A DNA stretch of 64,000 nt from positions 6,076,001 to 6,140,000 of the forward strand of contig NZ_CP134876.1 in the NCBI RefSeq assembly GCF_032108445.1, given 5' to 3'. The translations under genes and the position numbers were made by a program. The stretch comes from Micromonospora halotolerans. Lineage in GTDB: Bacteria > Actinomycetota > Actinomycetes > Mycobacteriales > Micromonosporaceae. How positions within the stretch are numbered: position 1 is the first letter of the stretch; the number at the start of each line of letters is the position of its first letter. The notes beneath the pieces are model-generated. The model did not search any database. It was not told the origin of the DNA and was given only the letters and a program-made list of their open reading frames with translations. Below, in pieces: positions 32,735-53,972 of the stretch.

Positions 32735-32748
32735 GTAAATCGATTTGC
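32735..32748. promoter_or_regulatory. LacI operator 1 (GH10 xylanase)
   Basis: GTAAATCGATTTGC, with a perfect AAATCGATTT centre, 115 bases before the GH10 start. One of six related sites in the island; see the LacI regulator at 43421. Confidence 0.75.
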
Positions 32749-32862
32749 GCAGTGGCAATGGATCGGCTCGCCACGGGCGGCCAGCGCTGTGACAGTGGTC
32801 GCCTGACCCTGTCACAGCACCTCAGGCCCGGTTCTTCGAACAACTCGGTGAAGGAGAATGCG

Positions 32863-34023
32863 ATGGCAGGTCAGGGAGGTCTCCGTCGGAGGTCGTTCCT
32901 CTTCGGCGGCATGGGAGCCGCGGTGCTGCTGGGTGGTGGTGCGTCGCAGTTCATGAACATGAGAGCGGCTTGGGCGGCACCGACAGGCAACCTGTATCAG
33001 GCGGCGCTGGCCAAGGGGATCCGGTACGGCTCCTCGACCGCGACGTGGCAGGTGCAGCCGGACCCCGACTACGCGGCGCTGTATGCGCGCGAGAGTGGGA
33101 TGCTGCTCACCGAGGACGACCTGCTGTGGTATCGACTCAAGCCAACGCAGACCGCGCCCCTGGACTTCAGCTACGGCGACCAGATCGTGTCGTTCGCCGC
33201 CGGCAACGCTCAGCCGGTGCTCGCGGCGCACCTGGCCTGGGACGAGGGACTGGGTGACGGGTGGGAACCGGACGCCCTCTACAACCTCAGCACCCAGGAC
33301 GCGCGCGACCTTCTGTTCGGGACGATCCAGCAGGAGGTCACGCACTATGCCGGCCGGGTGAAGGCCTGGGTGGTGGCCAATGAGGTAACCGACGGGCGGC
33401 GCAAGGACGCCAACGGGTTCTGGACGGTCGAGCCCTGGTACCAGACGATCGGGCCGACCTTCGTCGAGGAGGCGTTCAACCTCGCCCACCAGTGTGACCC
33501 GAACGCTCTGCTTCTCATCAACGACTTCGGATTCGAGACCGGGTCGGACGCGGTGGCTCGGCGGACGTCGATGCTCAAGGCCATCGACTATCTGAAGAGC
33601 AAGAACGTCCCGGTGCACGCGCTGGGGATCCAGGCACACCTGAATGCGAACGGGTTCAGCCGGCAATTCGATATAGCGGCCTACCGGACCTTCCTGTCGG
33701 ACGTCGCGGCGCGGGGGCTGTCCATCTTCATCACCGAGATGGATGTTCAGGACGACGGCCTGAAGGCGGACATCCCCAGCCGTGACGCGGGTGTGGCGAA
33801 CGTGTACGCGCAATATCTGTCCGTGGCCCTTCAGGAGCCCGCGGTTAAGGTCGTGCTCAACTTCGGGCTGAGCGACCGCTACACGTGGTTGCAGGAGGAC
33901 TTCCCGCGCAAGGATGGAGCCGCGCGCCGGCCGCTGCCCTTCGACGAGAACCTCCAGCCGAAGCCGGCCTACACCGCGATCCTGCAGGCCTTCCAGAACG
34001 CTCCGGCACGCACACCACTGTGA
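32863..34023 (+). CDS. Tat-exported GH10 endo-1,4-beta-xylanase
   Basis: A 386-residue enzyme with start at 32863 behind AAGGAG. A twin-arginine signal is visible (RRRSFLFGG, then a hydrophobic stretch and AWAAP). The GH10 catalytic domain fills the rest: acid/base Glu174 in VVANEVTDG and nucleophile Glu292 in FITEMDVQ, plus the substrate-site motifs HLAWDEG (in place of the usual HTLVWH) and GIQAHLN. No carbohydrate-binding module is attached. The first of these motifs departs from the common xylanase pattern, so specificity may differ. It carries a LacI operator upstream and ends in a strong hairpin. Confidence 0.9.
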   Translation: MAGQGGLRRRSFLFGGMGAAVLLGGGASQFMNMRAAWAAPTGNLYQAALAKGIRYGSSTATWQVQPDPDYAALYARESGMLLTEDDLLWYRLKPTQTAPLDFSYGDQIVSFAAGNAQPVLAAHLAWDEGLGDGWEPDALYNLSTQDARDLLFGTIQQEVTHYAGRVKAWVVANEVTDGRRKDANGFWTVEPWYQTIGPTFVEEAFNLAHQCDPNALLLINDFGFETGSDAVARRTSMLKAIDYLKSKNVPVHALGIQAHLNANGFSRQFDIAAYRTFLSDVAARGLSIFITEMDVQDDGLKADIPSRDAGVANVYAQYLSVALQEPAVKVVLNFGLSDRYTWLQEDFPRKDGAARRPLPFDENLQPKPAYTAILQAFQNAPARTPL

Positions 34024-34047
34024 TCAGATTCGGCAAAGTGCACTCTC

Positions 34048-34083
34048 AGGCTCTGACCGGCGCAAACGCGCCGGTCAGAGCCT
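34048..34083. terminator. Bidirectional hairpin terminator
   Basis: A perfect 16-bp stem (34048-34063 with 34068-34083) and a 4-base loop, between the convergent GH10 and amidohydrolase genes. Suited to stop transcription from both sides. Confidence 0.85.
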
Positions 34084-34145
34084 GGGACCCAGATAGCGGT
34101 GGCCACCCGAGGGCTCCTCACGCGCCACCGGATCGGCACGGATCA

Positions 34146-35294
34146 TCAGAGTCGGTCGCCGTAGGTCTCCACGGCGTTGTCGCTGCTCACCCGCTGCCTG
34201 ATCGCTGGCGGCAACGACGCCAGGGCGTGCCGCGGGTCGTCGAAGTCCCAGTGCGGGTAGTCGGAGCTGAACATCAGGGTACGGTCCGCGCGAGCGATCT
34301 CGCAGAGCACGTGCAGGTGGTGGCGGCGCTTCGGCTCCGGGAGTGGCTGCGTGGTGAACCGGACGTGATCCACGACGTACTCGCTGGGCAGTCGTCTCAC
34401 CCACGGCACCTCGTCGCGCAGGCCCTTGACGTTCTTGTCGAGCCGCCACATCACGTCGGGGATCCAGCCCAGCCCGCCCTCGGTGATGATCACCTTGAGG
34501 TTCGGGAAGCGCTCGAAGACCCCGTGGCAGACTAGGCTGATCACGTTCGCCTGGAACACCTGGCTGAGCCCGCTGTGCCACTCGACGTAGTACGTCGGTG
34601 TCCCGCCTGCCATCGGCGGCGAGGTACGGAAGACGCCTTCGCCCGAGTTGGGGTGGACGGCGACCGGAAGGCCCACCTCGTTCGCGGCCTCGTAGATCGG
34701 GTAATAGTGCCGCAGCCCCATCAGGATGCCGGTGAGCGGCAGCAGCACGCCGACGAAGCGTTCGTCCTCGGCCGCGCGCCGGATCTCCTGGGCCGCCAGC
34801 ACCGGGTCCTGGGCACCGACCACGATGTAGCCGCGGTACCGGTCGTCGGCATCGAGCCAGGTCGTGGCCAGCCACTGGTTGTACGCCGAGGCGATCATCG
34901 CTGCGGCATCCGGGTCGGGCATGGCCCCGAGCCCGAGCACCTCGCCGCCGATGAGCACCGCACGGTCGATACCGTTGCCGTCGAGCAGCTGTTGCGCCGT
35001 GAAGGCCGGGTCGGCGCCCGGCGCGGACCCGTCCGGCGCACGGGCGTCGTCGCGGAGCACCCCGGCCGGGTTGAGGTAGAGCATGTTCCGCGGGATCGAC
35101 ACCGCCTCGCGGTGCCCGATCGTGGTGAGGCTACGGCGCTCGTCGAGGCCCAGGCGACGCTGCGCGGCCTGGGAAAGGAACGGCCGGAGCTCCCCGAGGC
35201 CGCTCTTGGTGATCGGGTGGACGTCGCAGTCGACGAGTCGGTAGCGGCTCGGTGCGGCCGCCTCGGCGATGGGCTGGTCGAGCAGGTCGGCCAT
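34146..35294 (-). CDS. Amidohydrolase family protein (PF04909, ACMSD/resorcylate decarboxylase-like)
   Basis: A 382-residue metal-dependent TIM-barrel hydrolase or decarboxylase. Metal motifs: DCDVHP near residue 22 (strand 1), AVHPNSG in the middle, and SSDYPHWDFD near residue 345 for the catalytic Asp. Start at 35294 has an AGGAG site. This family includes aminocarboxymuconate semialdehyde decarboxylase, gamma-resorcylate decarboxylase and hydrolases of cyclic ketones. It is divergent from a Rieske protein with a shared LacI operator between them, so it belongs to the island; an aromatic or sugar-lactone substrate released from a plant glycoside is possible but unproven. Confidence 0.85.
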   Translation of the reverse strand: MADLLDQPIAEAAAPSRYRLVDCDVHPITKSGLGELRPFLSQAAQRRLGLDERRSLTTIGHREAVSIPRNMLYLNPAGVLRDDARAPDGSAPGADPAFTAQQLLDGNGIDRAVLIGGEVLGLGAMPDPDAAAMIASAYNQWLATTWLDADDRYRGYIVVGAQDPVLAAQEIRRAAEDERFVGVLLPLTGILMGLRHYYPIYEAANEVGLPVAVHPNSGEGVFRTSPPMAGGTPTYYVEWHSGLSQVFQANVISLVCHGVFERFPNLKVIITEGGLGWIPDVMWRLDKNVKGLRDEVPWVRRLPSEYVVDHVRFTTQPLPEPKRRHHLHVLCEIARADRTLMFSSDYPHWDFDDPRHALASLPPAIRQRVSSDNAVETYGDRL

Positions 35295-35354
35295 GGGAAC
35301 TCCTGTCCGGACAGTCGTTGCGGAGATGGCTCGAAGCCGCCAAAGTTATGCATA

Positions 35355-35368
35355 GCAAATCGATTGGC
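35355..35368. promoter_or_regulatory. LacI operator 2 (between amidohydrolase and Rieske genes)
   Basis: GCAAATCGATTGGC, identical to the site at 42433-42446. It lies 61 bases from the amidohydrolase start and 32 bases from the Rieske start and can control both. Confidence 0.75.
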
Positions 35369-35399
35369 AGGTCGGTAGACGGATCAGTGGGTGGGCCGC

Positions 35400-35750
35400 A
35401 TGGAAGTTCGGGTCGGCAGCGTCGAGGAGGTGCGCCGGGACGGGTGCAGGATCGTCGAGGTGAACGGGCGGTCGGTCGGCGTCATCAGCATCGGCGAGGA
35501 GTTCTTCGCGATCATCGACAGGTGCCCGCACATGGGTGCGTCGATGTGCGCGGGCTCGCTGAGCGGTACCTTCGTCGCCTCCGAGCCGCACGAGTACGTC
35601 TACGGCAAGGCCGGCCGGGTGATCCGCTGCCCCTGGCACGGCTGGGAGTTCGACCTCGAGAGCGGCCGGTCGCTCCTGGAGCCGAAACGCTTCGGACTCA
35701 AGACCTACCGGGTCACCCAGCTGGACGGCGAGGTCGTGCTGCACGCCTGA
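35400..35750 (+). CDS. Rieske-type 2Fe-2S ferredoxin
   Basis: A 116-residue single-domain Rieske protein with CPHMGAS near residue 43 and CPWHGWEF near residue 78, the two Cys-x-His ligand pairs. The intervening loop is longer than in dioxygenase ferredoxins and contains an extra cysteine and histidine. The start is set at ATG 35400 (MEVRVGS) after GGTGGG; a GTG at 35391 is possible. It should donate electrons to an oxygenase; the only oxygenase seen in the island is the PhyH-type dioxygenase, which normally does not need one, so its partner may be elsewhere. Divergent from the amidohydrolase under one LacI operator. Confidence 0.85.
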   Translation: MEVRVGSVEEVRRDGCRIVEVNGRSVGVISIGEEFFAIIDRCPHMGASMCAGSLSGTFVASEPHEYVYGKAGRVIRCPWHGWEFDLESGRSLLEPKRFGLKTYRVTQLDGEVVLHA

Positions 35751-35768
35751 GCATCACTGGGCACCGCG

Positions 35769-36797
35769 CTATCGGAGCTTGACGACCTGCCCCAGATTCG
35801 AGGAACGGTAGCCCGCCAGCGCGACCTCCAGGGCGCGCACGCCGTCCTGCCCCGTCGCACACGGGTCCTCAATCACGCCTGCGCGCACCGACGCGAGGAA
35901 CGCCTCGATCATCGCCCGATCGGCGTCCTCGGCGAACGACGCCTGACGCAGGCCCCGCGGACCGCCCTCACCGGCGCTGATGACGTTCAGCGCCTCGGCC
36001 CCGTCGGTGATCTCCAGCGAGCCCTCGGTGCCGACCAGGCGGAGGTAGAAGTCGTAGTCGTGCGGGTGATTCGCCGGCACCGACCAGCTCGGGTCGATGC
36101 TGCCGACCGCACCGTTCTCCAGGCGCAACGAGACCACCGCGACGTCCTCGACGTCGAGGTTCCAGAGCAGCGACCCGGCCTCGGCCGACACCTCGGTCAC
36201 TTCGAGCCCGCTGACGTGCCGCATCACGTCGGTGACGTGGACGGAGTGGTCGATGAGCGCCCCTCCGCCGGCGGCCACCGGGTCGGTGATCCAGCCGGGG
36301 TACGCCGGGGGCAGCGGCGGGCGGCCGCGGTTGCCACCGACCAGGCCGATCAGATCGCCCAACCGGCCGTCGCGGACCGCCGTACGCGCCCGCTCGACCA
36401 TGGGCAGGAAGCGGGACACGAACGGCTGGTGCAGCTGCACGCCCGCGGCCGCGCAGGCGGCGACCATCGCCTCGCCGTCCTCGACCGTCGTGGCGATCGG
36501 TTTCTCGCACAAGACGTGCTTGCCGTGGGCGGCGGCGAGCTCGACGTGGACGCGGTGCTCGTCGTTGGCGCTGCACACCAGCACGGCGTCCACCGCGGGC
36601 GAGGCCAGCAGCGCCTCGGCGTCGCCGGTGAGTGGTACGCCGAAATCCTGGCGGATCCAGCGGGTGTGCTCGGGCTCGGGATCGTACAGGCCCACGACGC
36701 AGGCGTTCGGCGACGCGGTCAGCGCCCGCGAGTAGGCCCACACGTGGCCCATGTGCGCGGCGCCGAGGATCGCGACGCCGACCGGCTTGCGGCTCAT
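35769..36797 (-). CDS. Gfo/Idh/MocA family oxidoreductase A
   Basis: A 342-residue NAD(P)-dependent sugar oxidoreductase. Rossmann motif VAILGAAHMGHVWA at residues 8-21, the catalytic EKPIA motif (HVLCEKPIATT), and the C-terminal alpha/beta domain with GGGALIDHSVHVTD holding the Asp/His pair. Start at 36797 shares one base with the preceding gene. Last gene of the ABC-importer operon. Family members oxidise a sugar or inositol hydroxyl, often to a keto sugar. Confidence 0.88.
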   Translation of the reverse strand: MSRKPVGVAILGAAHMGHVWAYSRALTASPNACVVGLYDPEPEHTRWIRQDFGVPLTGDAEALLASPAVDAVLVCSANDEHRVHVELAAAHGKHVLCEKPIATTVEDGEAMVAACAAAGVQLHQPFVSRFLPMVERARTAVRDGRLGDLIGLVGGNRGRPPLPPAYPGWITDPVAAGGGALIDHSVHVTDVMRHVSGLEVTEVSAEAGSLLWNLDVEDVAVVSLRLENGAVGSIDPSWSVPANHPHDYDFYLRLVGTEGSLEITDGAEALNVISAGEGGPRGLRQASFAEDADRAMIEAFLASVRAGVIEDPCATGQDGVRALEVALAGYRSSNLGQVVKLR

Positions 36798-37795
36798 CAA
36801 AGCTCCCACCTGATCAGGTCGATCGTCTGGCCGGTGCGGGCCGATTCGAGGGCGGCGAGTGCCGTGCGCAGCGACTCGACCGCCTCGACGGCGGGCACCG
36901 GCGGGGGTCCGCCGTCGCGGCAGGCCTGGAAGAACGCGCTCAGCTCGTGGGTGAACTCGCGGTCGCCGAGCACGTCCCACCACTCCGAGTCACCGTCGTG
37001 GGCGTGCAGTACGCCGCCGATCATGTGGTCGTAGTCCCACGACAGCTGGCCATCGGTGCCGGTGATCTCGGCCCGGAGCTTGAAGCCGCGCGAGGCCGGG
37101 TGGGCCCAGCTGCACTCGATGTGGGCGATGGCGCCGTTCTCGTAGCGGACCGTCGTCAGGGTGTAGGTCAGCGCGCCCGCGTCGCTGTCGGCCGCCATGC
37201 AGTGCACGCGTACGGCGGGACTGCCGATCACCCACCGGGCGTAGTCGAAACTGTGCACGGCCTGGTCGAGCAGCGGACCACCGGATGTCGCGGGGTCGGC
37301 GAGCCATCCCCCCTCGCTCCACCCAGGTAGCGAGGTCGTCGTCGAGTGGCTGAGCATACGTACGAGCCCGATTTCGCCCGACGCCGCCAGGTCGCGGGCG
37401 AGCCGGTGGTCCGGGCCGTAGCGGGCCACCTGCCCGATCGAGAGCAGGCCGGGCGCGGCGTCGGCGGCCGCGAGGACGCGGCGCGCCTCGTCCATGGTGC
37501 GCGTGATCGGCTTCTCGCACAGCACGTGCCGGCCCGCCCGAAGGGCGGCGATCGTGGCGTCGGCGTGGGCGGTCGGCGGCGTGCAGATGTCGACGACGTC
37601 GACGCCGAGGTCGAGCAGCGCGTAGAGGTCCGGCACGACTTTCGCGCCGTGCCGGTCGGCGATCCGCTCGGCCTTGCCCCGGACCGTGTCGGCAACGGCG
37701 GCCAGCCGGACGCCCGGGGAGTCGCGGTAGGCGTGCGCGTGGACGCCGGCGATCATGCCGGCCCCGAGCAGGCCGACCGTCAGCTCGCCGGTCAT
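36797..37795 (-). CDS. Gfo/Idh/MocA family oxidoreductase B
   Basis: A 332-residue oxidoreductase with VGLLGAGMIAGVHAHAY at the N-terminus, the EKPIT motif (HVLCEKPITRT), and GGPLLDQAVHSFDYARWV in the C-terminal domain, containing the conserved Asp and His. It is clearly different in sequence from the neighbour at 35769, so the two are not a recent duplication. Overlaps the cupin gene upstream and the next Gfo/Idh gene downstream. Confidence 0.88.
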   Translation of the reverse strand: MTGELTVGLLGAGMIAGVHAHAYRDSPGVRLAAVADTVRGKAERIADRHGAKVVPDLYALLDLGVDVVDICTPPTAHADATIAALRAGRHVLCEKPITRTMDEARRVLAAADAAPGLLSIGQVARYGPDHRLARDLAASGEIGLVRMLSHSTTTSLPGWSEGGWLADPATSGGPLLDQAVHSFDYARWVIGSPAVRVHCMAADSDAGALTYTLTTVRYENGAIAHIECSWAHPASRGFKLRAEITGTDGQLSWDYDHMIGGVLHAHDGDSEWWDVLGDREFTHELSAFFQACRDGGPPPVPAVEAVESLRTALAALESARTGQTIDLIRWEL

Positions 37796-39003
37796 CGCGC
37801 ACGGCCCGCGATGGACGGCGCCTCCGTGTGGAGGTCGGGCCCGAAGAACAGGAATACCACGAGGTCCTCGCTTCCGGTGTTGGCGACCTCGTGCTCGCGG
37901 GTCGCCGCGTCGTGGGTGACCACCAGTTCGTCCCGGCCCGGCTCGCCGCCGCGCACCTCATGCCCGGCGAGCCTGCCGTCACCGGTCCAGGCGAAGACGC
38001 TGTAGACGCCGGGCTCGCGCAGCCGGTGGACGCCGCCCGGCGGGACGACGAGACGCTTCCCGGCGTACTTGCTGGTGTTGTAGAAGACCCAGGTCTCCTC
38101 GCCATCGCCGTCCGCGCCGACGACGGGCTGCGGGCTCAGGTGGCGGTTCTCGTAGAACCACGGGTCGCCGTTGACCTCCCAGTCCACGAAGCCGAGCGGG
38201 AACCGCTCGCCGTGCTTGTCGCGGTCCCGCGGCCGGACGTCCTTGAACAGCAGGTCCTTGGAGATGATCCGGCCGGCGTTCAATGCCTGGAACATCGACA
38301 GGACGTCGGAGTCCTCCTGCAACTCGAGGGTGAGAGCCGTGCCGGGGGCGTGCAGCACGCCGGACGGCACATGGAATCCCTCGCCGGCTACCTGCAGCTC
38401 CGCGCGGGCATGCCGAAGGATCAGGTCGCTGTCCCAGTCGACGAGGTAGGGCAACAGCACCTCGTGCGCCGACTGCTCCGCGATCCACGGGTGCACGCCG
38501 AAGAACGTCTCCGGGTGCGCGCCCGGGTCGACACCCGGCAGGAAATGGTAGGACTCGTCCTTGGCGTTGCGGCCGACCAGCGACGCGAACTCCTGGGGCG
38601 GATGGATGTGGTAGGGCAACCGGTGGGCGTAGTCGAAGATCTTCGCCAGCCGCCCCAGTCCCGCGGGATGCGAGGCGGCGTACGCCGCGCCCAGGATCGC
38701 CGCCGGATCGGCGGCAACGGCGTCGCGCAGCAGGAGCCGCTCACCGTGCTCCCCCACGACGTGGCTGAGCCCCTCGTCCTGCGGACCGACGCGGTTGTCC
38801 GCCTTCGTCGTCGAGGCGAGCCACCGCTCGCAGATCGCGCCACGCTCCCCGACGTCGTAGGCGTTCTCGGGTAAACCCAGCCGCCGGCCCGGCGGCAGGA
38901 AGTCGCGCGCGACCCACGCCGGCTCACACCTCAGCACGCCGTCCCCGGCTTCGAGTAGCCGGGCGAGCACGTCGCGGGCTCCACCCGGATTCGCCGTCGC
39001 CAC
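37792..39003 (-). CDS. Cupin protein related to type I mannose-6-phosphate isomerase
   Basis: A 403-residue protein with at least two cupin folds. The segment RLPYHIHPPQEFAS matches the metal-binding histidines of type I phosphomannose isomerases, and FHVPSGVLHAPG a second metal ligand. Start is GTG 39003, one base after the permease gene, with a GAAGGG site. The protein probably isomerises or binds a sugar or sugar acid taken up by the adjacent importer. It is longer and more diverged than a standard ManA, so the substrate is open. Confidence 0.72.
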   Translation of the reverse strand: MATANPGGARDVLARLLEAGDGVLRCEPAWVARDFLPPGRRLGLPENAYDVGERGAICERWLASTTKADNRVGPQDEGLSHVVGEHGERLLLRDAVAADPAAILGAAYAASHPAGLGRLAKIFDYAHRLPYHIHPPQEFASLVGRNAKDESYHFLPGVDPGAHPETFFGVHPWIAEQSAHEVLLPYLVDWDSDLILRHARAELQVAGEGFHVPSGVLHAPGTALTLELQEDSDVLSMFQALNAGRIISKDLLFKDVRPRDRDKHGERFPLGFVDWEVNGDPWFYENRHLSPQPVVGADGDGEETWVFYNTSKYAGKRLVVPPGGVHRLREPGVYSVFAWTGDGRLAGHEVRGGEPGRDELVVTHDAATREHEVANTGSEDLVVFLFFGPDLHTEAPSIAGRAR

Positions 39004-39005
39004 GG

Positions 39006-39992
39006 TCAGCCCTTCACACCGGTGAGGGCGATGCCCTGCACGAACTTCCGCTGGAAGACGAGGAACACGATGATCATCGGCAGGGTCGCGATCACCGACC
39101 CGGCGAAGAGCAAGGTCCAGGACGTGCGGTTCTGCACCACGAACAGGGCGAGCCCCACGGGCGCGGTGATCTTTTCGGGGCTGGACAGGATGATCAGGGG
39201 CCAGAAGAAGTCCTCCCACGCCCCCTGGAAGGTGAAGATCGCGTTTGCCGCGAGCGCCGGCGCGCACAGCGGCAGCACGACCGACCGGAAGATCCGGAAC
39301 TCGCTCGCACCGTCGATGCGGGCGGCCTCCAGCAGTTGATCCGGGATCGAGAGCATGTACTGACGGATGAGGAAGATGCCGAACGCCGACACGATCCCCG
39401 GCATGATCAGACCCCAGTAGGAGTCCAGCCAGCCGTGCCCGCCGTTGCCCATCCAGTCGTTGCCACCGAAGAACGGGATGTGCTTGATGATCAGGTAGTT
39501 CGGGATGAGCGTGACCTGGCCGGGAACCATCATCGTCGCCAGGAAGAGCATGAAGATCACGTTACGGCCGGGGAACCGGCGCTTGGCGAAACAGTAGGCG
39601 CACAGGGCGTTGAAGAATGTCTGCAGCACGGTGATCGCGATCGCGACGAAGGCGCTGTTCACGAACCACCGCCAGTCACCGTGTCCCTGGCCCTGCTGGG
39701 CCTTGGTGAGGTGACCGACATTCAAGAAGCCCTTGTAGCCCTCCAGGGTCGGGTCCTTCGGAACCCAGTGCGGCGAGGTGGAGAAGATCTCCCCCATCGG
39801 CTGGAACGACGCGCTGATCAGCCATGCGAACGGGGCCACGAACAAGATCGCGAGCGGGGCGAGAACCAGGTACGTGACCACCTTCTGCTGCCACGTGAAC
39901 CGGTTGACCCCGTTCCGCGGCGACCTTCGGTCCGGCGCAGCGGGCTCCGGCGCCGCCTGACGCAGGTCGACTCCTGCGACGACGCCGCTCAT
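39006..39992 (-). CDS. Sugar ABC transporter permease (MalG type)
   Basis: A 328-residue permease with six helices; start MSGVVAGVD at 39992, overlapping the upstream permease stop. The EAA loop (LLEAARIDGASEFRIFRSVVLP) is intact and would contact the ATPase. It pairs with 39989-40987. No ATP-binding gene is in the operon or elsewhere in the island. Confidence 0.92.
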   Translation of the reverse strand: MSGVVAGVDLRQAAPEPAAPDRRSPRNGVNRFTWQQKVVTYLVLAPLAILFVAPFAWLISASFQPMGEIFSTSPHWVPKDPTLEGYKGFLNVGHLTKAQQGQGHGDWRWFVNSAFVAIAITVLQTFFNALCAYCFAKRRFPGRNVIFMLFLATMMVPGQVTLIPNYLIIKHIPFFGGNDWMGNGGHGWLDSYWGLIMPGIVSAFGIFLIRQYMLSIPDQLLEAARIDGASEFRIFRSVVLPLCAPALAANAIFTFQGAWEDFFWPLIILSSPEKITAPVGLALFVVQNRTSWTLLFAGSVIATLPMIIVFLVFQRKFVQGIALTGVKG

Positions 39993-40987
39993 GCGTCGAA
40001 CCCCTGCCGCATGAGGCGCAGCTGGAGCGCCGTGAACGCGAGCAGCATGAGGAAGAGCGCGAACGCCAGGGTGCTGGCATAGCCCATGTCGAAGTACTTG
40101 AACGCCCAGAGATACATGTAGTAGACCATCGTCGTCGTCTTGTTGACCGGTCCGCCGCTGGTCATCACGAAGATCTGGGTGAAGACCTGCAGCGAGCTGA
40201 TGATCCCCATGACGGCCAAGAACAGGGTGGTGGGCCGGAGCATGGGGATCGTGATGTACCGCAGGCGTTGCCATACGCCGGCACCGTCGATGCGGGCCGA
40301 CTCGTAGAGCTCGTCGGGGATCGCCTGCAGCCCGGCGAGGTAGACCACCATCGAAAAGCCGGTGCCCGCCCACACGCTCATCAAAATGACCGCCGGCATC
40401 GCGAGGTTCTTGTCCGACAGCCACAGCAAGGGTGCATCGATGAGGTGCGCCTGCAGCAGGTAGTGGTTGAACAGCCCGTAGTCACCGTTGTAGAGCCACT
40501 TCCAGAGGATGGCGGAGACCACGAACGGCGTGACGACCGGAAGGTAGAACGCGGCCCGGAACAGGCCGCGCAACCGCAGCGGCAGGTTGAGCAGAAGCGC
40601 CAGCAGCAGCCCGATCGCCATCGAGAGCGGAACCGAGGCGCCGCTGAAGTAGATGGTGTTCAGCACCGACCCGGTGAACCGCTCATCCTGGATCATGTCG
40701 CGATAGTTGTCCAACCCGACGAACGGCCGGTCCGGCTCGATGATGCTCCACCGGTGGAAGGTCAGGTAAACGGCGAAGATCAGGGCGGCCAGTGTGAAGA
40801 CCGAGAAGATCAGCATGCCGGGCAGCAGGAAGACGTACGCCGACCGTTGCGTCCAGACCCGGGCCGCAACGCCGCGCCGGTTCCCGTGCGGGATCTCGCG
40901 TCTGAGGCGTGGCCGGGTCCATCGCCCGCCGGCCTTCACAGGGACCGCGTCCGTCTCGGTCCGCCCCAGCGGCCGTGCCGTCGCCAT
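39989..40987 (-). CDS. Sugar ABC transporter permease (MalF type)
   Basis: A 332-residue permease; start MATARPLG at 40987 behind AAGGAG. The hydrophobic segments begin with AYVFLLPGMLIFSVFTLAAL; the EAA loop ELYESARIDGAGVWQRLRYI is typical of the MalF side of CUT1 sugar importers. It is separated from the binding-protein gene by a strong hairpin. Confidence 0.92.
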   Translation of the reverse strand: MATARPLGRTETDAVPVKAGGRWTRPRLRREIPHGNRRGVAARVWTQRSAYVFLLPGMLIFSVFTLAALIFAVYLTFHRWSIIEPDRPFVGLDNYRDMIQDERFTGSVLNTIYFSGASVPLSMAIGLLLALLLNLPLRLRGLFRAAFYLPVVTPFVVSAILWKWLYNGDYGLFNHYLLQAHLIDAPLLWLSDKNLAMPAVILMSVWAGTGFSMVVYLAGLQAIPDELYESARIDGAGVWQRLRYITIPMLRPTTLFLAVMGIISSLQVFTQIFVMTSGGPVNKTTTMVYYMYLWAFKYFDMGYASTLAFALFLMLLAFTALQLRLMRQGFDA

Positions 40988-41006
40988 CACCGTCTCCTTT
41001 CCTCCG

Positions 41007-41039
41007 TGCGTCACCGGGCCGGTCCGGCCCGGTGACGCA
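41007..41039 (-). promoter_or_regulatory. Intra-operon hairpin between binding-protein and permease genes
   Basis: A 15-bp perfect inverted repeat (TGCGTCACCGGGCCG / CGGCCCGGTGACGCA) with a 3-base loop, between the stop of the binding-protein gene and the permease start. Such hairpins stabilise or partly terminate the mRNA so that binding protein is made in excess over the permeases. Confidence 0.7.
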
Positions 41040-43370: not shown

Positions 43371-43379
43371 GGGACGACC

Positions 43380-43393
43380 CCAAATCGTTTTGG
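43380..43393. promoter_or_regulatory. LacI operator 4 (AraC/LacI divergent promoter)
   Basis: CCAAATCGTTTTGG, the most diverged site, 10 bases from the AraC start and 28 bases from the LacI start. Likely autoregulation of LacI and repression of AraC. Confidence 0.6.
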
Positions 43394-43420
43394 CACCAGA
43401 TCTCCCAGTAGGATACGGCC

Positions 43421-47511: not shown

Positions 47512-48429
47512 TCAGACGTGGACGTGCGGGGCGAGGGTGCGGTGTGCGATGGTCAGGCCCTGGCGGACGCGGCCGGGATCACCGCTCCAGACCGGGTCCT
47601 CGTGCTCGACGGAGACGACACCTTCGTATCCGTGCTGGTGGAGCGCGTCGATCAGGCGCCGCCAGTCGACCTCACCGAGGCCGGGGATGCGGTAGCGCCA
47701 CCACCCGCTCTTCCAGGGCTGCTTGTTGAGCACCTGCCCGAACACCCCGTAGCGGTTGCGGGCGGCGGCGTGCACCTCGACGTCCTTGGCCTGAACATGC
47801 AGGATCCGTTCGGCGTGCGCCTCGAGCGCCGCCAGTGGGTCGATGCCGAGCCAGACCAGGTGCGAGGGATCGTAGTTGAGCCACAGCCCGAGGTCGGCCA
47901 TCCAGCCCCAGAGCTCGGGCGAGTACGCGAGGTTCGCCGGATAGCCGTCGGGATGCCAGCCCTCCATCGGGCAGTTCTCGATCACGAGGCGTACGTCGCG
48001 GGCCGCGGCGTACTCGACCAGCGGCGGCAGCACCTGCTCGGCCAGCCGGAGGTTCTCGGCCACCGTGAGCGTCACGTCGCGGCCGACGAAGGTGCCGACC
48101 AGGCGCACGCCGAGCAGGTGGGCGGCGTCGATGCACCGGCGCAGGTGCGCGTGCGTCGCCTCGCGAACCTCCCGGTCCTCATGCAGGTTGTTCTCGTAGT
48201 ACGCGACCGCCGACAGGGTCAGGCCGTGCCGGTCGAGCATCGCGGCGACGCTGTCGGCGTCGGCCTGCCCGAATGCCTCGACGTTCAGGTGGCTGGCCTC
48301 CCAGTCGCGGCCGGGCCGGTCGGGCCAGGCGGCGACCTCGAGGGCGGCGTACCCGTGGCCGCCGGCCCACCGGGCGATGTCCTCGAGCGACTCGCCGGGC
48401 AGGCAGGCGGTCAGAAGTCCCAGTCTCAT
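47512..48429 (-). CDS. Sugar phosphate isomerase/epimerase-like TIM barrel (AP_endonuc_2 family)
   Basis: A 305-residue protein; start MRLGLLTACLP at 48429. The barrel strands LVIENCPMEG, LNYDPSHLVW, HVQAKDVE and VVSVEHEDPVW carry the metal-binding Glu, Asp, His and Glu typical of xylose-isomerase-like and IolE/IolI-type enzymes. Several members of this family act on 3-keto sugars or cleave C-glycosidic bonds next to Gfo/Idh partners. Gap of 25 bases to the next gene. Confidence 0.88.
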   Translation of the reverse strand: MRLGLLTACLPGESLEDIARWAGGHGYAALEVAAWPDRPGRDWEASHLNVEAFGQADADSVAAMLDRHGLTLSAVAYYENNLHEDREVREATHAHLRRCIDAAHLLGVRLVGTFVGRDVTLTVAENLRLAEQVLPPLVEYAAARDVRLVIENCPMEGWHPDGYPANLAYSPELWGWMADLGLWLNYDPSHLVWLGIDPLAALEAHAERILHVQAKDVEVHAAARNRYGVFGQVLNKQPWKSGWWRYRIPGLGEVDWRRLIDALHQHGYEGVVSVEHEDPVWSGDPGRVRQGLTIAHRTLAPHVHV

Positions 48430-48439
48430 GAGCCGAACC

Positions 48440-49198
48440 TCAGGCGCGGGCGGGTGCGTTCGCGTAGTCATTACCGGCGAGGTCGACCCCTCGGGCCAGC
48501 CAGATCTTCCATCCTTCGTTCTGTGGGACGTCCTGCATCTTCACCGAGCTTGGGAAGTACCGCATGGTGTAGCCGGTGCGCCGGGTGGCGCTGGTGTTGG
48601 CTCGGGCGCCGTGGACGATCCGGCCGTCATGCATCGAGAACTCGCCGCGCTGCAACTCGAAGTAGACGGCCTTCCCCTCGTCCACACCGGCGATTTCGGC
48701 GTGGAAGGTCTGCTCGGTCATGTCGGTGGGCCGGTAGTTGTCCGAGAACCCGCCGTCCAGGTGCGAGCCCGGAATGACCCGCATGCAGCCGTTCTCCTTG
48801 AACGAGCCGCCCTCGAGGGCGAGCCAGATCGTGACGATGTTGTCGTAGTCGTCGAAGCGGCCCTCCCAGTACGCGCTGTCCTCGTGCCAGGGGGTCGCCC
48901 GGCCGGTGAAGGGGTCCTTCGAGATGAAGTGGCTCGACCAGAGAGCGATGTTGGGGCCGACCAGTGGCTCGACCCAGTCGAGAACCTCGTCGGAGAGCAG
49001 GTGATCCAGCAGCCGCTCGTCGTGGTAGTGCGGGGTGTCGAGCTCGTCGGAGAGCTTGTCGCCCCTGGCTTCGAGGTGCTCGTTGAAGATCAGCTCGAGC
49101 TGCGAGAGGCGATCCTCCGACAGCAGTTGCCGGCCGGGCAACAGATAGCCGTTCTCGCGGAAGAACGCCACATCGGCGTCGGTCAGGGTCTCAGTCAT
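48440..49198 (-). CDS. Phytanoyl-CoA dioxygenase (PhyH) family protein
   Basis: A 252-residue Fe(II)/2-oxoglutarate-dependent dioxygenase. The iron-binding facial triad is readable as HED in TPWHEDSAYW and the distal His in IVHGARANTS; the 2-oxoglutarate Arg is in TSATRRTGY. Start MTETLTD at 49198. It would hydroxylate a small substrate, for example an aglycone or a sugar-derived acid. Situated between a Gfo/Idh gene and the TIM-barrel isomerase on the same strand. Confidence 0.88.
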   Translation of the reverse strand: MTETLTDADVAFFRENGYLLPGRQLLSEDRLSQLELIFNEHLEARGDKLSDELDTPHYHDERLLDHLLSDEVLDWVEPLVGPNIALWSSHFISKDPFTGRATPWHEDSAYWEGRFDDYDNIVTIWLALEGGSFKENGCMRVIPGSHLDGGFSDNYRPTDMTEQTFHAEIAGVDEGKAVYFELQRGEFSMHDGRIVHGARANTSATRRTGYTMRYFPSSVKMQDVPQNEGWKIWLARGVDLAGNDYANAPARA

Positions 49199-49283
49199 CG
49201 CGGTGGCGCCTTTCCAGGTAAAGGTGTTCGGGGGGACAGGGGCGAGGACGACGCTACGGCGCGGCGACCGGGGCCACGACACC

Positions 49284-49343: not shown

Positions 49344-50417
49344 TCAGCCCTTCTCCAGGGCTCGGATGATCTCGACGAAGAGCTCCATGTCGTGCACGAA
49401 ATCTTCCGGGGTCGTCTTGGGTGTCGCACCTGTGGTGACCGCCTCGTGGAAGTGCTCGAGCTCGTAGGTGTAGGGGTCCTTGAGGTGTGGTCGCCGCACG
49501 GAACGCTCGTAGGAGTCGCCGTCGGTGAGCTCCAGATGCAGCGTCGTCGGGAAGTGCCGGACGTAGGGCGTGTCGTACTCCACCTTCATCGTGCCGCTCG
49601 CGCCGTAGACCTCGATGTAGGTGTCGTAGCGCAGTTGGTCGTCCACCCCTGTCTCGTACGTGACGACGAAGTCGCCGTAGTCGAGGAGTGCGACGAGGTA
49701 GCCGCCGTTGCGCCACATCTTCGCGGCCGAGACCTCCTTCGGGCGGCCGAGCAGCTCCCGCATCGCGGAGAGGTCGTGGCTGCCGAGGCCGCAGAGCAAC
49801 CCGTAGGTCCACTCCAGCTCCTGGGGAACGTCGCCCAGCGCCTCCTTCACGAGCGCCGAGCGGCGCGCCCACTTCTCGTCGACCGCCTCCTCCGGGACGT
49901 CGTCCGGCCGGTCGACGTACGACGTCTGGTCGACGATCAGCCGATTTTCGCCGATCACGTCGTGGACCCGCACGTAGCGGATCGGGCCGAGCTGGGGCAG
50001 CTTTTCGACCGCCTCGGTGAACGCCGGTGCGAAACGCCGCATGTAGGCGACCATCACGGTCTTCCCCGACCGGTCGCGCGCCGCGATGATCTCCTGTGCC
50101 TCGCGGGGGCTGAGGCACATCGGCTTCTCGACCAGTACGTCGAGACCCGCGTCGAGCGCCGCGACCGTGCAGTCCGCGTGGTACTCGTCGCTGTTGAGCA
50201 CCACCACGCAGTCCAGGCCGCCGGCGGCGAGCATCTCGCGGAAGTCGGTGTAGCGGTGCTCGACCCGATAGCGAGCGCCCAGACGCTCCAGCAGACCCGG
50301 CGAGATGTCGCAGATCGCCGCGAGCTCGTAGCGGTCGGGCAACGACTCGATGACGGGCAGGTGGATGACCTGGGCGACCTCGCCCAGTCCGATCACGCCG
50401 ACGCGCAGCTTGCTCAA
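49344..50417 (-). CDS. Gfo/Idh/MocA family oxidoreductase C
   Basis: A 357-residue oxidoreductase. TTG 50417 is taken as start because GAGAGG lies 7 bases upstream and the Rossmann motif VGVIGLGEVAQV then begins close to the N-terminus; the frame is open to 50552 without a better site. Catalytic motif VEKPMCLSP; the C-terminal domain contains LCGLGSHDLSAMRELLG with the conserved His. Belongs to the operon headed by 50556-51743. Confidence 0.87.
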   Translation of the reverse strand: MSKLRVGVIGLGEVAQVIHLPVIESLPDRYELAAICDISPGLLERLGARYRVEHRYTDFREMLAAGGLDCVVVLNSDEYHADCTVAALDAGLDVLVEKPMCLSPREAQEIIAARDRSGKTVMVAYMRRFAPAFTEAVEKLPQLGPIRYVRVHDVIGENRLIVDQTSYVDRPDDVPEEAVDEKWARRSALVKEALGDVPQELEWTYGLLCGLGSHDLSAMRELLGRPKEVSAAKMWRNGGYLVALLDYGDFVVTYETGVDDQLRYDTYIEVYGASGTMKVEYDTPYVRHFPTTLHLELTDGDSYERSVRRPHLKDPYTYELEHFHEAVTTGATPKTTPEDFVHDMELFVEIIRALEKG

Positions 50418-50555
50418 CTGTGTACCTCTCGGTAGTGGGTTGGCCGGTAAGGGCGACCGGTCAGGGCCTGGGGAGAACGCGGCGTCGAACGACGCCGCAG
50501 ACGGCCCGATGCGCTGCCGGGGGGCGCACGCACCGGTGCTCCCGTCGGGCATTGG

Positions 50556-51743
50556 TCAGACCGCGGTCCAGCCGGCGCCCGCTGCCGAGGATCGCTCAAC
50601 GGCGTCCAGCACCCGCTGGACCTGGAGGCCGTCGGCGAACGACGGCGCCGGCGGCGTGCCGGCTGCGACATCGCGCACGAAGTCGGCGATCTCGTGCACG
50701 AACGTGTGCTCGTAGCCCAGTCCGTGGCCGGGAGGCCACCAGACGCCGGTGTAGGGATGGTCGGGTTCGGTGACCAGGATCCGGCGGAACCCGGCGTCAC
50801 GGGAAGGCGCGGTGCCGTCGTGCACGTGCAGCTCGTTCATCGACTCGAAGTCGAAGGCGATGCTGCCGGCCGAACCGTTCAGCTCGATCCGCATGGCGTT
50901 CTTGCGCCCGGTGGCGAACCGGGTCGCCTCGTAGGTCGCGAGCGCGCCGCCGTCGGTGCGCCCGAAGAACACCGCGGCGTCGTCGACGGTGACCTCGCCG
51001 GTCTCGACGCCGCCGCTCGCACTCAGCCCGGACGTCGCCTGGGCGACGGGACGGCGCTCGACGAAGCGGGTGTGGTGGCCCGAGACCTTGGTCAGGCGCT
51101 GGCCGGTGAGGAACTGGGAGAGGTCGACGATATGTGCGCCGATGTCGCCGAGCGCGCCGGATCCAGCCTTGTCCTTCTGCAGTCGCCAGACCAACGGGAA
51201 CTCCGGGTCCACAATCCAGTCCTGCAGGTAGTGAGCACGAATGTGGCGAACCGCGCCCACGGCGCCTTCCTCGACGAGCCGCCTCATGTAGGCGAGCGCC
51301 GGTGTACGGCGGTAGTTGAATCCGACGGAGGACAGGACGCCTCGCGCTTGTGCCGCCTGGGCCGTGGCGGTCATCTGCTCGGCCTCGGCGACGGTGTTCG
51401 CCAGCGGCTTCTCGCACAGCACGTGCTTCCCGGCCTCCAAGGCCGCGATGGCGATGTCGGCGTGCGTGTCGCCTGGCGTGCAGATGTCGACGACCTGGAC
51501 ATCATCCCGGTTGAGTACCTGCCGCCAGTCCGTCGTCCAGTCCGCCCACCCCATCTTGTCGGCGGCCGCCTTGGTGGCGGACTCGGTGCGGCCGCAGATG
51601 ACGCTCATCGCCGGGCGGACCGGCAGGTCGAAGAACCGGTGCGCGGTGCGCCACCCCTGGGAGTGAGCGGCACCCATGAACGCGTAGCCGATCATCGCTA
51701 CCCCGAGCTCGGACCGCGGGCCGCCAGGCTGATGCGCGCTCAT
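50556..51743 (-). CDS. Gfo/Idh/MocA family oxidoreductase D
   Basis: A 395-residue oxidoreductase; start MSAHQPGG at 51743 behind AAGGAG. Rossmann motif VAMIGYAFMGAAHS, catalytic HVLCEKPLANT, and GALGDIGAHIVDLSQFL. First gene of the 51743-44461 operon, with a LacI operator 21 bases upstream of its start. With four divergent paralogues in one regulon, successive oxidation and reduction of different sugar positions is likely. Confidence 0.88.
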   Translation of the reverse strand: MSAHQPGGPRSELGVAMIGYAFMGAAHSQGWRTAHRFFDLPVRPAMSVICGRTESATKAAADKMGWADWTTDWRQVLNRDDVQVVDICTPGDTHADIAIAALEAGKHVLCEKPLANTVAEAEQMTATAQAAQARGVLSSVGFNYRRTPALAYMRRLVEEGAVGAVRHIRAHYLQDWIVDPEFPLVWRLQKDKAGSGALGDIGAHIVDLSQFLTGQRLTKVSGHHTRFVERRPVAQATSGLSASGGVETGEVTVDDAAVFFGRTDGGALATYEATRFATGRKNAMRIELNGSAGSIAFDFESMNELHVHDGTAPSRDAGFRRILVTEPDHPYTGVWWPPGHGLGYEHTFVHEIADFVRDVAAGTPPAPSFADGLQVQRVLDAVERSSAAGAGWTAV

Positions 51744-51763
51744 GATCTCTCCTTCGGACCGGC

Positions 51764-51777
51764 GCAAATCGGTTTGC
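51764..51777. promoter_or_regulatory. LacI operator 5 (Gfo/Idh-PhyH-glycosidase operon)
   Basis: GCAAATCGGTTTGC, palindromic arms GCAAA/TTTGC, 21 bases before the start of the first gene of the operon. Confidence 0.75.
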
Positions 51778-51828
51778 TAGAGGAACACGCTAAGTGCTGC
51801 GCACCTTCCGGTCAACGCAGTCAACCGG

Positions 51829-52092
51829 TCAGACGGGCGGGTCGGGTCCGTGCCATGAACGCCACAGCGCGGCGTACGCTCCATCGGCGGCGACCAGCTC
51901 GCCGTGCGTGCCGAGCTCGGTGATGCGCCCGCCTTCGACCACTGCGACCCGATCGGCGGCGCGCGCGGTGTGCAGGCGGTGGGCGATGGCGATCACCGTA
52001 CGGCCCTGGAGCATGGCCATCGCCAGGTTCTCTCGCAGCGAGCCGATGAACAGGTGGTGTTCCTGCGTCACCAGGACAATGCGTCGGCCCAA
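51829..52092 (-). pseudogene. ABC exporter ATPase remnant with internal deletion
   Basis: The C-terminal part of a multidrug/lipid exporter-type ABC ATPase. It reads [20 protein letters not shown] (Q-loop region) and then directly [11 protein letters not shown] (H-loop region) and [19 protein letters not shown]. The signature motif and Walker B that should lie between are missing, about 60 residues, and the transmembrane domain is absent. Not functional. The following 52093-52366 interval shows nothing supported. Confidence 0.8.
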
Positions 52093-52366
52093 TCCTCGGG
52101 GGAAGTCTCGCCAACCGCGACGCCGCCGACCCGTACGCTACCGGCTCGGCCTCCGCTCCGACGAGGGCGCCGGGCAGCGGCTCGACGGCACCGGAGGTAC
52201 TGAGGTACGGCAGCCCGGCGGTGTCGTACGGCGCATCCTCCGGTGCGTCGCGCGGTACGCCTCGGTCACATGATCCGCACCGCGCTGACCAGGCTCAACT
52301 CGCTCGCGGGTACCTGGTGACAGCTTCCCCCCTGACGACAGGCCGGCCACGACGTCGACCGACAGC

Positions 52367-53242
52367 TCACGGCAGAGCCGCCATCCGCTCGAGAAACAAC
52401 TCTCGGAAGGCAGGCGCGTCCACCGCTGTCGCGATCCGGCAGTTGGGCTCGGGCGGGTTCTCCCACATCAGGAGGTCGGCCACCGCCACCCCGCGGGTGA
52501 CCCGGCCGGCCGTTTCCACGGCGACGTGCGCCTCGGTCCAGGTGACCAGATCCGGACGGGTGACCACCGCGACGGCGAGCGGGTCGTGCAGCGCGCAGCT
52601 GCCCTGCTCGATCGCCTCTCGCGGCTTGACCCGCTCCTGGAAGTCGATCCAGGCCTCGCTGTGGCGGGCGGCGATCCGGCCGAACTTCCCTTCGGACTCC
52701 AGGGCTCGGGCGTCCTCGCGGCTCAGCCGCACCTGACGGGTCACGTCGAGTCCGACGAACCGCAGGCGCGCGCCGCTCTCGCAGACCGACTGGGCCGCCT
52801 CGGGGTCGCACCAGAAGTTGTATTCACCCGGCATCGCCGCGACGTTCGTCTGCTCGAGGAACACCCCACCCATGACGACGACCTCGCGCACCGCGCCCGC
52901 GACCCCCGGTGCGAGCGCGAGCGCGCGTGCGACATTGGTCAGCGGTCCAATCGCGACGATGGTCAACTGCCCTGGCTCGGCGAGCACCCGACGCGCGATC
53001 TCCTCGGCCGCGACGACATCGGCCGGGGCACCCTGCACCACGGGCACGTCGCCGCGGCCGAGCACCTCGAGCAGCTCACGAGTCAGCCGGGTCGAGGTCA
53101 CGACGTCGCTGTTGCCACCGACCGTCGTGACCAGCTCGACGCGGAGACCGGGGTCGGCCAGGGCCAGCGCAAGCGCGAAGCCGTCGTCGATGTCCGACCC
53201 CGGCGCCCCCATGGCCAGGTCCGTGTCGAGGATGATCCGCAT
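52367..53242 (-). CDS. Nucleoside hydrolase (inosine-uridine preferring family)
   Basis: A 291-residue protein; start MRIILDTD at 53242. The calcium/ribose-binding aspartates are in ILDTDLAM and SDIDDGFALAL, with family motifs TIVAIGPLTNVARAL, MGGVF, EYNFWCDPEAA and CALHDPLAVAVV. The family cleaves N-glycosidic bonds of ribonucleosides. Here, downstream of ThuA and under a sugar-responsive LacI operator, an N-glycoside other than a common nucleoside is possible. Gap of 11 bases after ThuA. Confidence 0.9.
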   Translation of the reverse strand: MRIILDTDLAMGAPGSDIDDGFALALALADPGLRVELVTTVGGNSDVVTSTRLTRELLEVLGRGDVPVVQGAPADVVAAEEIARRVLAEPGQLTIVAIGPLTNVARALALAPGVAGAVREVVVMGGVFLEQTNVAAMPGEYNFWCDPEAAQSVCESGARLRFVGLDVTRQVRLSREDARALESEGKFGRIAARHSEAWIDFQERVKPREAIEQGSCALHDPLAVAVVTRPDLVTWTEAHVAVETAGRVTRGVAVADLLMWENPPEPNCRIATAVDAPAFRELFLERMAALP

Positions 53243-53253
53243 CGGTTCCCGGG

Positions 53254-53922
53254 TCAGCGGCTCGCCCACAGCAGACCTCTCTCGGTCAGCGTCCGCACAT
53301 CTGGGTGGTCGAGGTCCTCCAGCTTGTGGCCGATCGTCGAGACGAAGACCCTGCCCTTCCCCCACTGGCGGGTCCACACCGCGGGGCAGGTCAGCTCCTC
53401 CCGCCACGGCGTGTCGTCACGCACGCCGAACGTGGTCGTAGCGAGCACGTCGTTCAGCTCATCGGTGAGCACCCAGTACTGCTCGGTGTTCAGCGCCCAG
53501 CGGTCCAGGCCCTCGACGATCTGATGCCCGCGCCGCTCCGGCACGACGGTCACCTCGTACTCGACGAAGCCACCGGGATGCGCGGCCCACTGCCCGCCCG
53601 TGAGGTGTAGGTAGTCGGGCGAGCCGCGAAAGGAGTCACAGACGCCACCGTGCCAGCCGGCGAGACCGGTGCCGCCCGCGACCGCGGCGGACAGCCCGAG
53701 TACCTGTTCGTCGGTGGCGACGCCCTGGGTGTAGCACTGCACGACGAGATCGATCGCGGCGAGCTTCTCGCCGTCGGCGTACACCTCGGGGCTCTCGTGC
53801 ACCTCGACGGCGTAGCCGTGCTCCTCGAGGAACGGGATGAACCTCTCGGTCGCCGCGACCGGGCTGTGCCCCTCCCAGCCACCCCGGACGACCAGAGCCT
53901 GACGGGTGCGCCCACTGTCCAT
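53254..53922 (-). CDS. ThuA-like (trehalose utilisation) protein
   Basis: A 222-residue protein with the ThuA class-I GATase-like fold: ALVVRGGWEGHSP at the N-terminus, LVVQCYTQG, AGWHGGVCDSF and the C-terminal GKGRVFVSTIGHKLED. Start at 53922 behind AAGGAG. ThuA proteins accompany Gfo/Idh oxidoreductases in keto-sugar pathways such as trehalose via 3-keto-trehalose. First gene of a two-gene operon with a LacI operator 37 bases upstream. Confidence 0.85.
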   Translation of the reverse strand: MDSGRTRQALVVRGGWEGHSPVAATERFIPFLEEHGYAVEVHESPEVYADGEKLAAIDLVVQCYTQGVATDEQVLGLSAAVAGGTGLAGWHGGVCDSFRGSPDYLHLTGGQWAAHPGGFVEYEVTVVPERRGHQIVEGLDRWALNTEQYWVLTDELNDVLATTTFGVRDDTPWREELTCPAVWTRQWGKGRVFVSTIGHKLEDLDHPDVRTLTERGLLWASR

Positions 53923-53958
53923 GCTTCTCCTTGGTGTGAGGGTTCGATCGGCACGGTA

Positions 53959-53972
53959 GCCAATCGATTTGC
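53959..53972. promoter_or_regulatory. LacI operator 6 (ThuA-nucleoside hydrolase operon)
   Basis: GCCAATCGATTTGC, the reverse complement of the 35355/42433 sequence, 37 bases upstream of the ThuA start. It marks the right border of the regulon. Confidence 0.75.

Follow-up and report, generated by a model that had tools for sequence, protein, structure and literature searches.

A probable LacI-family regulon with six operator-like palindromes in a carbohydrate island of Micromonospora halotolerans

Do the several operons of a 21-kb gene block in Micromonospora halotolerans answer to a single regulator and, if so, to which? The block lies in the window analyzed here, a stretch of 64,000 nucleotides (6076001-6140000 of a genome that is one contig of 6,955,679 bases), and one of its approximately 19 genes encodes a LacI-family protein (43421-44443; positions are those of the window unless given as genome positions). 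A first-pass annotation of this DNA had listed six 14-bp palindromes in front of the operons of this island and had proposed the LacI protein as the factor that acts at them. It is very likely that all six serve as operators of a single local LacI-family regulon, with this protein as the regulator.

The six palindromic sites and their confinement

All six sites are found where the first-pass annotation placed them, with one to three mismatches to the consensus GCAAATCGATTTGC (Table 1); the copies at 35355 and 42433 are indeed identical, and the site at 53959 is their reverse complement. The motif is an even palindrome with a CG center, and the central C has a frequency of 100% in a symmetrized matrix of 96 sites (described below). 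Distances from site to gene start, read from the sequence, run from about 9 to about 114 bases: about 114 for the GH10 gene, 60 for the amidohydrolase-like gene, 31 for the Rieske gene, 50 for the binding-protein gene, 9 for araC, 27 for lacI, 20 for the levoglucosan-dehydrogenase-like gene, and 36 for thuA. The claim that the sites cover every operon of the island, lacI included, fits the gene layout, from which the operons were deduced. Operator C falls within the 3′ tail of araC, where the reading frame is poorly conserved. This tail (42366-42550) spans both operator C and the transporter promoter, and the AraC match stops before it in several relatives (for example, L008, L010, and L011; L numbers denote the loci, and G numbers the genomes, that were compared).

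The window contains six sites, whereas 100 shuffled versions of it contained a mean of 0.76 and at most three. In the whole genome, only five places match GCAAATCGATTTGC with one mismatch or fewer, and all five are inside the island. Many equally good sites scattered through the genome had been named beforehand as an observation that would speak against a single regulon; the good sites prove instead to be confined to the island. The degenerate pattern NCMAAWCGDTTKGN, which was composed from orthologous sites and so is not fully independent of them, likewise occurs at five genome places, all five in the island; these include the site at 43380 and miss the one at 32735, and the backwards control for this pattern gives zero forward matches and one reverse match.

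At the positions that we take to be the equivalents of Y17, Q18, and R22 in the Escherichia coli Lac repressor, the presumed DNA-contact triplet of the island LacI is P-T-H. The genome has 32 LacI-type helix-turn-helix (HTH) matches, all of which were aligned, and P-T-H is found in none of the other 31. Among orthologs it is present in 28 of 29 rows (S-T-H in L017), a set that includes two probable duplicates, since 400-base stretches of L117 and L118 recur without change in L030 and L028. A -10-like TAGGAT (43409-43414, read by eye) lies six bases ahead of the lacI ATG, with similar spacing in many orthologs, suggesting that the lacI transcript is probably leaderless; operator D would then likely lie over the lacI -35 region.

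Conservation across orthologous loci

Named genomes were scanned with the LacI protein as the query, which gave 75 loci; of these, 24 (L008-L031, 59-93% identical) were taken as orthologs and the other 51 (24-53% identical on the best segment) as controls of more distant LacI relatives. The orthologous loci (429,207 bases) contain 29 matches at one mismatch or fewer and 77 at two or fewer, compared with zero and five in the control loci (922,704 bases), although the control set includes other phyla and is not matched in G+C, which tempers this contrast. A match with two mismatches or fewer is present in 23 of the 24 orthologous loci, and in the remaining one, the 5.5-kb contig L025, a three-mismatch site lies before lacI. 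The motif stands at the matching operons or promoters in 23 of the 24 loci, which come from six families; in L029, from a seventh family (an Actinophytocola bin), the LacI ortholog and motif accompany other genes. At that locus (6654-15303), LacI is found with an FGGY kinase fragment, a class II aldolase, an isomerase-like protein, and an MFS transporter, and one- and two-mismatch sites are kept.

With up to three mismatches allowed, the 24 loci have 94 matches, 90 of which were assigned by hand to six promoter classes, A through F (loci per class in Table 1; 23 for class C with L029 included). The four omitted sites are L029 7514, 9101, and 10603 and L030 8925, among which L029 9101 has one mismatch and lies ahead of the isomerase-like gene; the site L029 7443 was counted in the binding-protein class, where the locus has no binding-protein match and the site precedes the kinase gene fragment. 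An ungapped alignment of these 90 sites and the six of the window (96 in all) finds the 14-base block to be more conserved than its flanks. Five loci (L012 and L028-L031) have no AraC match and all five keep sites; thus, the motif follows LacI.

The GH10-thuA operon is relocated in L024, L026, L027, and L030, and an operator is retained at each rearranged promoter. The Micromonospora loci L024, L026, and L027 mostly have GCAAAACG half-sites in place of GCAAATCG (L024 8936, 17082, and 17193; L026 8919, 17037, and 17147; L027 7766, 15876, and 15986), and the LacI proteins of this type are 64-66% identical to that of the window, with the same P-T-H and other changes in the HTH (a W after SGKR). 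Asanoa (L030) has both kinds of half-site. This second, diverged version in other Micromonospora and the version in the window together allow the LacI specificity code to be tested.

The regulator and its rivals

That LacI 43421-44443 controls the sites was originally a deduction, and it is now supported by the confinement of the motif, by its presence at the matching promoters of orthologous loci, by the unique P-T-H triplet, and by its retention where AraC has no match. The sites, their confinement, their conservation alongside lacI, and the unique triplet can be read from sequence, whereas binding, repression (as opposed to activation), the effector, and the substrate are inferences. A LacI dimer would bind the six sites through its P-T-H recognition helix, covering or adjoining the core promoters of the island operons, its own included, and would keep them silent until it is released by a sugar or sugar derivative that the cell has imported. 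The derepressed island would make a secreted GH10 enzyme, a sugar ATP-binding cassette (ABC) importer, dehydrogenases, hydrolases, and the pair of probable oxygenase and ferredoxin, all for the use of a plant-type glycan or glycoside.

Several observations weigh against this picture. At three mismatches or fewer the genome has 41 matching places, compared with 35 for the backwards pattern, which is the background level, and by mismatch count alone the site at 43380, the weakest of the six, is indistinguishable from that background. Other evidence was therefore sought in conservation and in the degenerate motif, and the site is rescued by the NCMAAWCGDTTKGN scan and by the conserved site before lacI in 17 of the 24 orthologous loci; the other seven (L017, L024, and L026-L030) have no site assigned there. 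Two additional places match with two mismatches (genome positions 6297577 and 6809164); both are outside the island and the window and may be chance matches or distant regulon members; in a crude reading-frame check one was inside a frame of odd composition and the other had no coding-like frame. In 200 sampled genomes of the family, 71 have at least one match at one mismatch or fewer to GCAAATCGATTKGC, genomes in which no LacI ortholog was found have up to four matches per strand, and G032 carries the ortholog yet has no match at this level (three-mismatch sites lie near its lacI, locus L116). The M. halotolerans genome itself has five such matches, and five of 37 sampled congeners have any. 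Co-occurrence of the motif and LacI is weak by bare pattern count, and the case for a regulon rests on clustering at the island promoters and on conservation. In addition, a consensus scan of 42300-43500 for sigma-70-type promoters found none, the placement of the operators with respect to promoters was judged by eye, and AraC, which has a match in 19 of the 24 loci, could share control.

This last protein (42366-43370) might even be the one that binds the sites, with LacI uninvolved or regulating other targets. Its gene adjoins operator D and contains operator C and, as just noted, accompanies most of the orthologous loci; AraC proteins mostly bind direct repeats, however, and the sites persist in the five loci that have no AraC match. 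An even palindrome with a central CG is also the usual LacI-family form in the portion of PMC4052901 drawn on here. Binding by AraC in place of LacI is highly unlikely. The number of LacI-type HTH matches in the genome makes cross-talk possible, so that another LacI-family protein, or several with overlapping specificity, might control the island, but the absence of P-T-H from the other 31 domains and the confinement of good sites argue against this, and it is extremely improbable.

A different division of labor would have LacI bind the sites but serve chiefly as an activator, or as a dual regulator, and leave repression to AraC. A small number of LacI-family members do activate, and the two genes diverge around operator D; on the other hand, several operators in the footprints, judged by eye, overlap or adjoin -10/-35-like sequences, which is the position of a repressor. 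This arrangement is partly compatible with LacI as repressor at the six sites, so that the odds of the two overlap, and it is itself quite unlikely. Finally, the background level of three-mismatch matches could be taken to mean that the palindromes arose by chance or serve some structural, nonregulatory function; confinement to the island and conservation in 24 loci largely refute this, and its probability is negligible. Repression by LacI 43421-44443 from the six sites fits these observations best, and if it is correct the regulon is a tight and testable one, with one regulator, six operators, and a clear candidate DNA code in a single 21-kb block.

Gene content, origin, and known counterparts

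The GH10 gene at the left is followed by the amidohydrolase-like and Rieske genes, which diverge over operator B (Table 1). Operator C heads a leftward operon of the binding protein, two permeases, the isomerase-like protein, and two Gfo/Idh/MocA dehydrogenases, and araC and lacI diverge over operator D. Operator E heads a six-gene operon, also leftward, for an alcohol dehydrogenase, a GH42-like hydrolase, a xylose-isomerase-like barrel, PhyH, and two Gfo/Idh/MocA proteins, and operator F heads thuA and the nucleoside-hydrolase-like gene.

Table 1. Candidate operators and predicted genes of the island (window positions; mismatches are to GCAAATCGATTTGC, and loci are the 24 orthologous ones)
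Feature	Position	Strand	Sequence	Remarks
Operator A	32735..32748		GTAAATCGATTTGC	1 mismatch; 5′ of GH10 gene; counterpart site before GH10 in 12 loci
Operator B	35355..35368		GCAAATCGATTGGC	1 mismatch; between divergent oxygenase-like and Rieske genes; in 11 of 11 loci having both
Operator C	42433..42446		GCAAATCGATTGGC	1 mismatch; 5′ of transporter operon; before binding-protein gene in 22 loci and kinase gene fragment in L029
Operator D	43380..43393		CCAAATCGTTTTGG	3 mismatches; between araC and lacI; overlaps likely lacI -35 region; site before lacI in 17 of 24 loci
Operator E	51764..51777		GCAAATCGGTTTGC	1 mismatch; 5′ of six-gene dehydrogenase/hydrolase operon; in 17 loci
Operator F	53959..53972		GCCAATCGATTTGC	1 mismatch; 5′ of thuA; in 10 loci
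GH10 endo-xylanase-like protein	32863..34023	+		PF00331 204 bits; closest solved chains are beta-xylanases
PF04909 amidohydrolase-like protein, candidate dinuclear oxygenase (ARO-like)	34146..35294	-		PF04909; PDB 8sm7, 8sm6, 8sm9, 6m1w chain B
Small Rieske ferredoxin	35400..35750	+		PF00355; CPH ... CPWH in translation; frame also open from GTG 35391
Gfo/Idh/MocA dehydrogenase	35769..36797	-		Start inferred
Gfo/Idh/MocA dehydrogenase	36797..37795	-
Distant phosphomannose-isomerase-like protein	37792..39003	-		Weak manA matches; 62-93% identity in 16 loci; start inferred
ABC sugar permease	39006..40424 (open frame; start probably near 39990)	-		PF00528
ABC sugar permease	39989..41014	-
Sugar ABC transporter substrate-binding protein, lipoprotein-like	41063..42382	-
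AraC-family regulator	42366..43370	-		PF12833 and PF02311; poorly conserved tail overlaps operator C
LacI-family regulator	43421..44443	+		LacI HTH (PF00356, 58.3 bits) and periplasmic-binding-protein-like domain (PF13377, 128 bits)
Zinc-type alcohol dehydrogenase	44461..45414	-
GH42-like multidomain glycoside hydrolase	45411..47486	-		PF08532 below cut-off; AlphaFold model; Foldseek
Xylose-isomerase-like TIM barrel (IolE/LgdB-like)	47512..48471	-		PF01261
PhyH-family Fe/2-oxoglutarate oxygenase-like protein	48440..49282 (start not fixed)	-		PF05721
Gfo/Idh/MocA dehydrogenase	49344..50552	-		PF01408
Levoglucosan-dehydrogenase-like Gfo/Idh/MocA protein	50556..51743	-		NF052479 368.5 bits, below cut-off 650
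Inosine-uridine nucleoside hydrolase-like protein	52367..53242	-		PF01156; start inferred
ThuA-domain protein	53254..53922	-		PF06283

The GH10 assignment follows from a PF00331 score above its cut-off; the protein has what we take to be a twin-arginine-like leader and, as seen by eye, presumably both catalytic Glu motifs (NE and TE). The GH42-like protein has no significant PDB sequence match (best E 0.34), and its AlphaFold model (20 sequences; mean pLDDT 75, pTM 0.80) resembles alpha-agarase, GH42 arabinopyranosidase, and beta-galactosidases in Foldseek (best TM about 0.6); it is probably a glycoside hydrolase of unassigned specificity. The levoglucosan-dehydrogenase-like gene is present in the window, in L009, and in several Nocardioides loci and has no match in four of the five closest relatives' loci (L008, L010, L011, and L012), so it looks like an optional part of the island. 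Nocardioides locus L013 has a ribokinase-like gene (18264-19373) between its levoglucosan-dehydrogenase-like and nucleoside-hydrolase genes, which hints at a pentose product; the window is without it. A kinase remnant in the gap 51778-52366 was considered and rejected: the tblastn match (53% over 45 amino acids) sits at about 52365-52499, within the nucleoside hydrolase gene, and the part of the query that matches lies ahead of its kinase domain and, in L013, overlaps that gene too, so it is read as out-of-frame coding.

In a tree of LacI proteins the window copy clusters with those of Microbispora, Nonomuraea, and Actinomadura in a group of six rows (support 100/98), that is, with Streptosporangiaceae and Thermomonosporaceae and away from the host's own family, whose members form a separate eight-row Micromonosporaceae group and L028. 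DNA identity between the window and L008, L009, and L010 is 91.6-91.9% over 18.5-19.2 kb. On the right, similarity ends at 53982-53983 in L008-L011 and L013 (10-11 bases beyond operator F), at 53975 in L015, and already at 50447 in L012; on the left, blastn similarity begins at 32826 (L011) or 32832 (L012), and both loci still match operator A some 90 bases beyond that point. The tree grouping and a similarity that ends just past the rightmost site suggest that the unit travels whole. Six of the 200 sampled family genomes, that of the window included, have an ortholog at E ≤1e-100, and it is absent at this level from all 37 other genomes of the genus in the sample. The unit, a portion of it, or a diverged version is nonetheless present in other Micromonospora species (at least four Micromonospora records have the amidohydrolase at 97-98% identity among the matches listed, 120 of 1665), and thus its distribution is patchy and not unique. 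Transfer of the whole unit seems to fit these data best, and the unit looks horizontally acquired. Carriage by a plasmid was rejected, as none of the three plasmid records that match covers more than 5% of the queried stretch, and no tRNA gene was found at the island borders within the 64-kb window.

The closest solved relatives of the amidohydrolase-like protein are 8sm7 (E 5e-93), 8sm6, 8sm9, 6m1w, and 8sm8 (range 5e-93 to 4e-49), and its best match to a decarboxylase is far poorer (5e-15). Residues that might hold metal can be followed in alignments with the amidohydrolase-related dinuclear oxygenases (ARO), in which the metal ligands are three His and three carboxylates. The candidate ligands here, taken from sequence alignment, are D22, D24, H26, H214, E272, D345, and H348, all invariant in the window protein and eight orthologs. 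For H214, E272, D345, and H348, all four ARO chains shown have the identical residue at the aligned position; for D22, D24, and H26 this is so in two chains, and the other two alignments begin later. Chain B of 6m1w, a chain of AibH1H2 whose sequence is shared with 8fum, has Asp at residue 342, as the portion of PMC10401708 drawn on here names for AibH2, and so was taken as AibH2. D342 is there described as a second-sphere Asp, and D350 of the window protein, also invariant in the nine proteins, aligns with it (counted by hand on the alignment). The Rieske partner has a C-x-H ... C-x2-H motif, and its gene adjoins the amidohydrolase-like gene in a divergent, separate operon. It is probable that the PF04909 protein is a dinuclear-metal oxygenase. 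The oxygenase-like/Rieske pair has no match in L024, L026, L027, and L030 and so is not in every version of the island.

The presence of a GH10 enzyme, an importer, several dehydrogenases of the 3-keto-sugar type, and two oxygenase-like proteins leads to a tentative best guess that the substrate is a decorated plant glycan or glycoside. A more elaborate joint reading is speculative and rather unlikely to hold in full: the regulon would reveal the natural role of an orphan ARO clade, which would oxidatively remove a substituent (for example, O-methyl) from a glycan-derived sugar released by GH10, with its Rieske ferredoxin under the same operator, and the regulator-operator-oxygenase unit would spread between actinobacterial orders by transfer. 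If so, it would be the first enzyme of the ARO type, in the parts of the literature surveyed, to be linked to carbohydrate catabolism. Placing an orphan type of dinuclear-metal oxygenase in a sugar pathway would narrow the search for its substrate, and the regulon's likely inducer is that substrate or a close relative of it.

Several known systems resemble parts of the island. The levoglucosan pathway LgdA-LgdB1-LgdB2-LgdC of Bacillus smithii, as given in the excerpt of PMC7676230 used here, shares Gfo/Idh/MocA dehydrogenases and a xylose-isomerase-like (sugar phosphate isomerase/epimerase-type) protein with it, suggesting by analogy 3-keto sugar chemistry, but the island LgdA-like protein is below its cut-off and has no match in most of the closest relatives' loci (above). 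The best NCBIfam match (NF047341, 238.4 bits) and best PDB match (9ny7) of the island LacI are RbsR-type ribose repressors, but it lies under the NF047341 cut-off of 382 and the genes it would regulate are not a ribose operon. Levoglucosan and ribose were both considered as substrates, and neither is supported by its curated cut-off (Table 1 for the former).

A search of the literature text for the motif CAAATCGATTTG found no published description, and one for AAATCGATTT gave no LacI-operator title among the matches listed. Local LacI sugar regulons as a class are well described: in the portion of PMC4052901 (Ravcheev et al. 2014) drawn on here, nearly 90% of LacI regulators are local and more than three-quarters of the local ones are autoregulated, and these regulons resemble the island in that the palindrome is even with CG at its center, the regulated operons surround the regulator gene, and the promoter of that gene also carries a site. 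The island has conserved palindromes at the surrounding operons and at its own lacI promoter, in the window and in 17 of the 24 orthologous loci; it differs in its conserved core of 14 bases, compared with 16-22 for the great majority there. As a regulatory system it is thus an ordinary arrangement of a common kind. What is notable is its content, a protein resembling dinuclear-metal monooxygenases whose gene diverges from that of a Rieske ferredoxin over one putative operator, which gives an orphan enzyme class a carbohydrate context. The section of PMC10811679 (Liu et al. 2024) used here defines the ARO enzymes, which were sought through a small Rieske neighbor, and its authors could not readily infer the natural substrates of the candidates. 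Like the island pair, the known cases (AibH2, SfbO, and PDB 8SM7-8SM9; PMC10811679 and PMC10401708, in the parts consulted) combine PF04909 with an adjacent small Rieske ferredoxin; the island protein, recognized here from its sequence, differs from them in that it sits in what is probably a LacI-controlled carbohydrate island.

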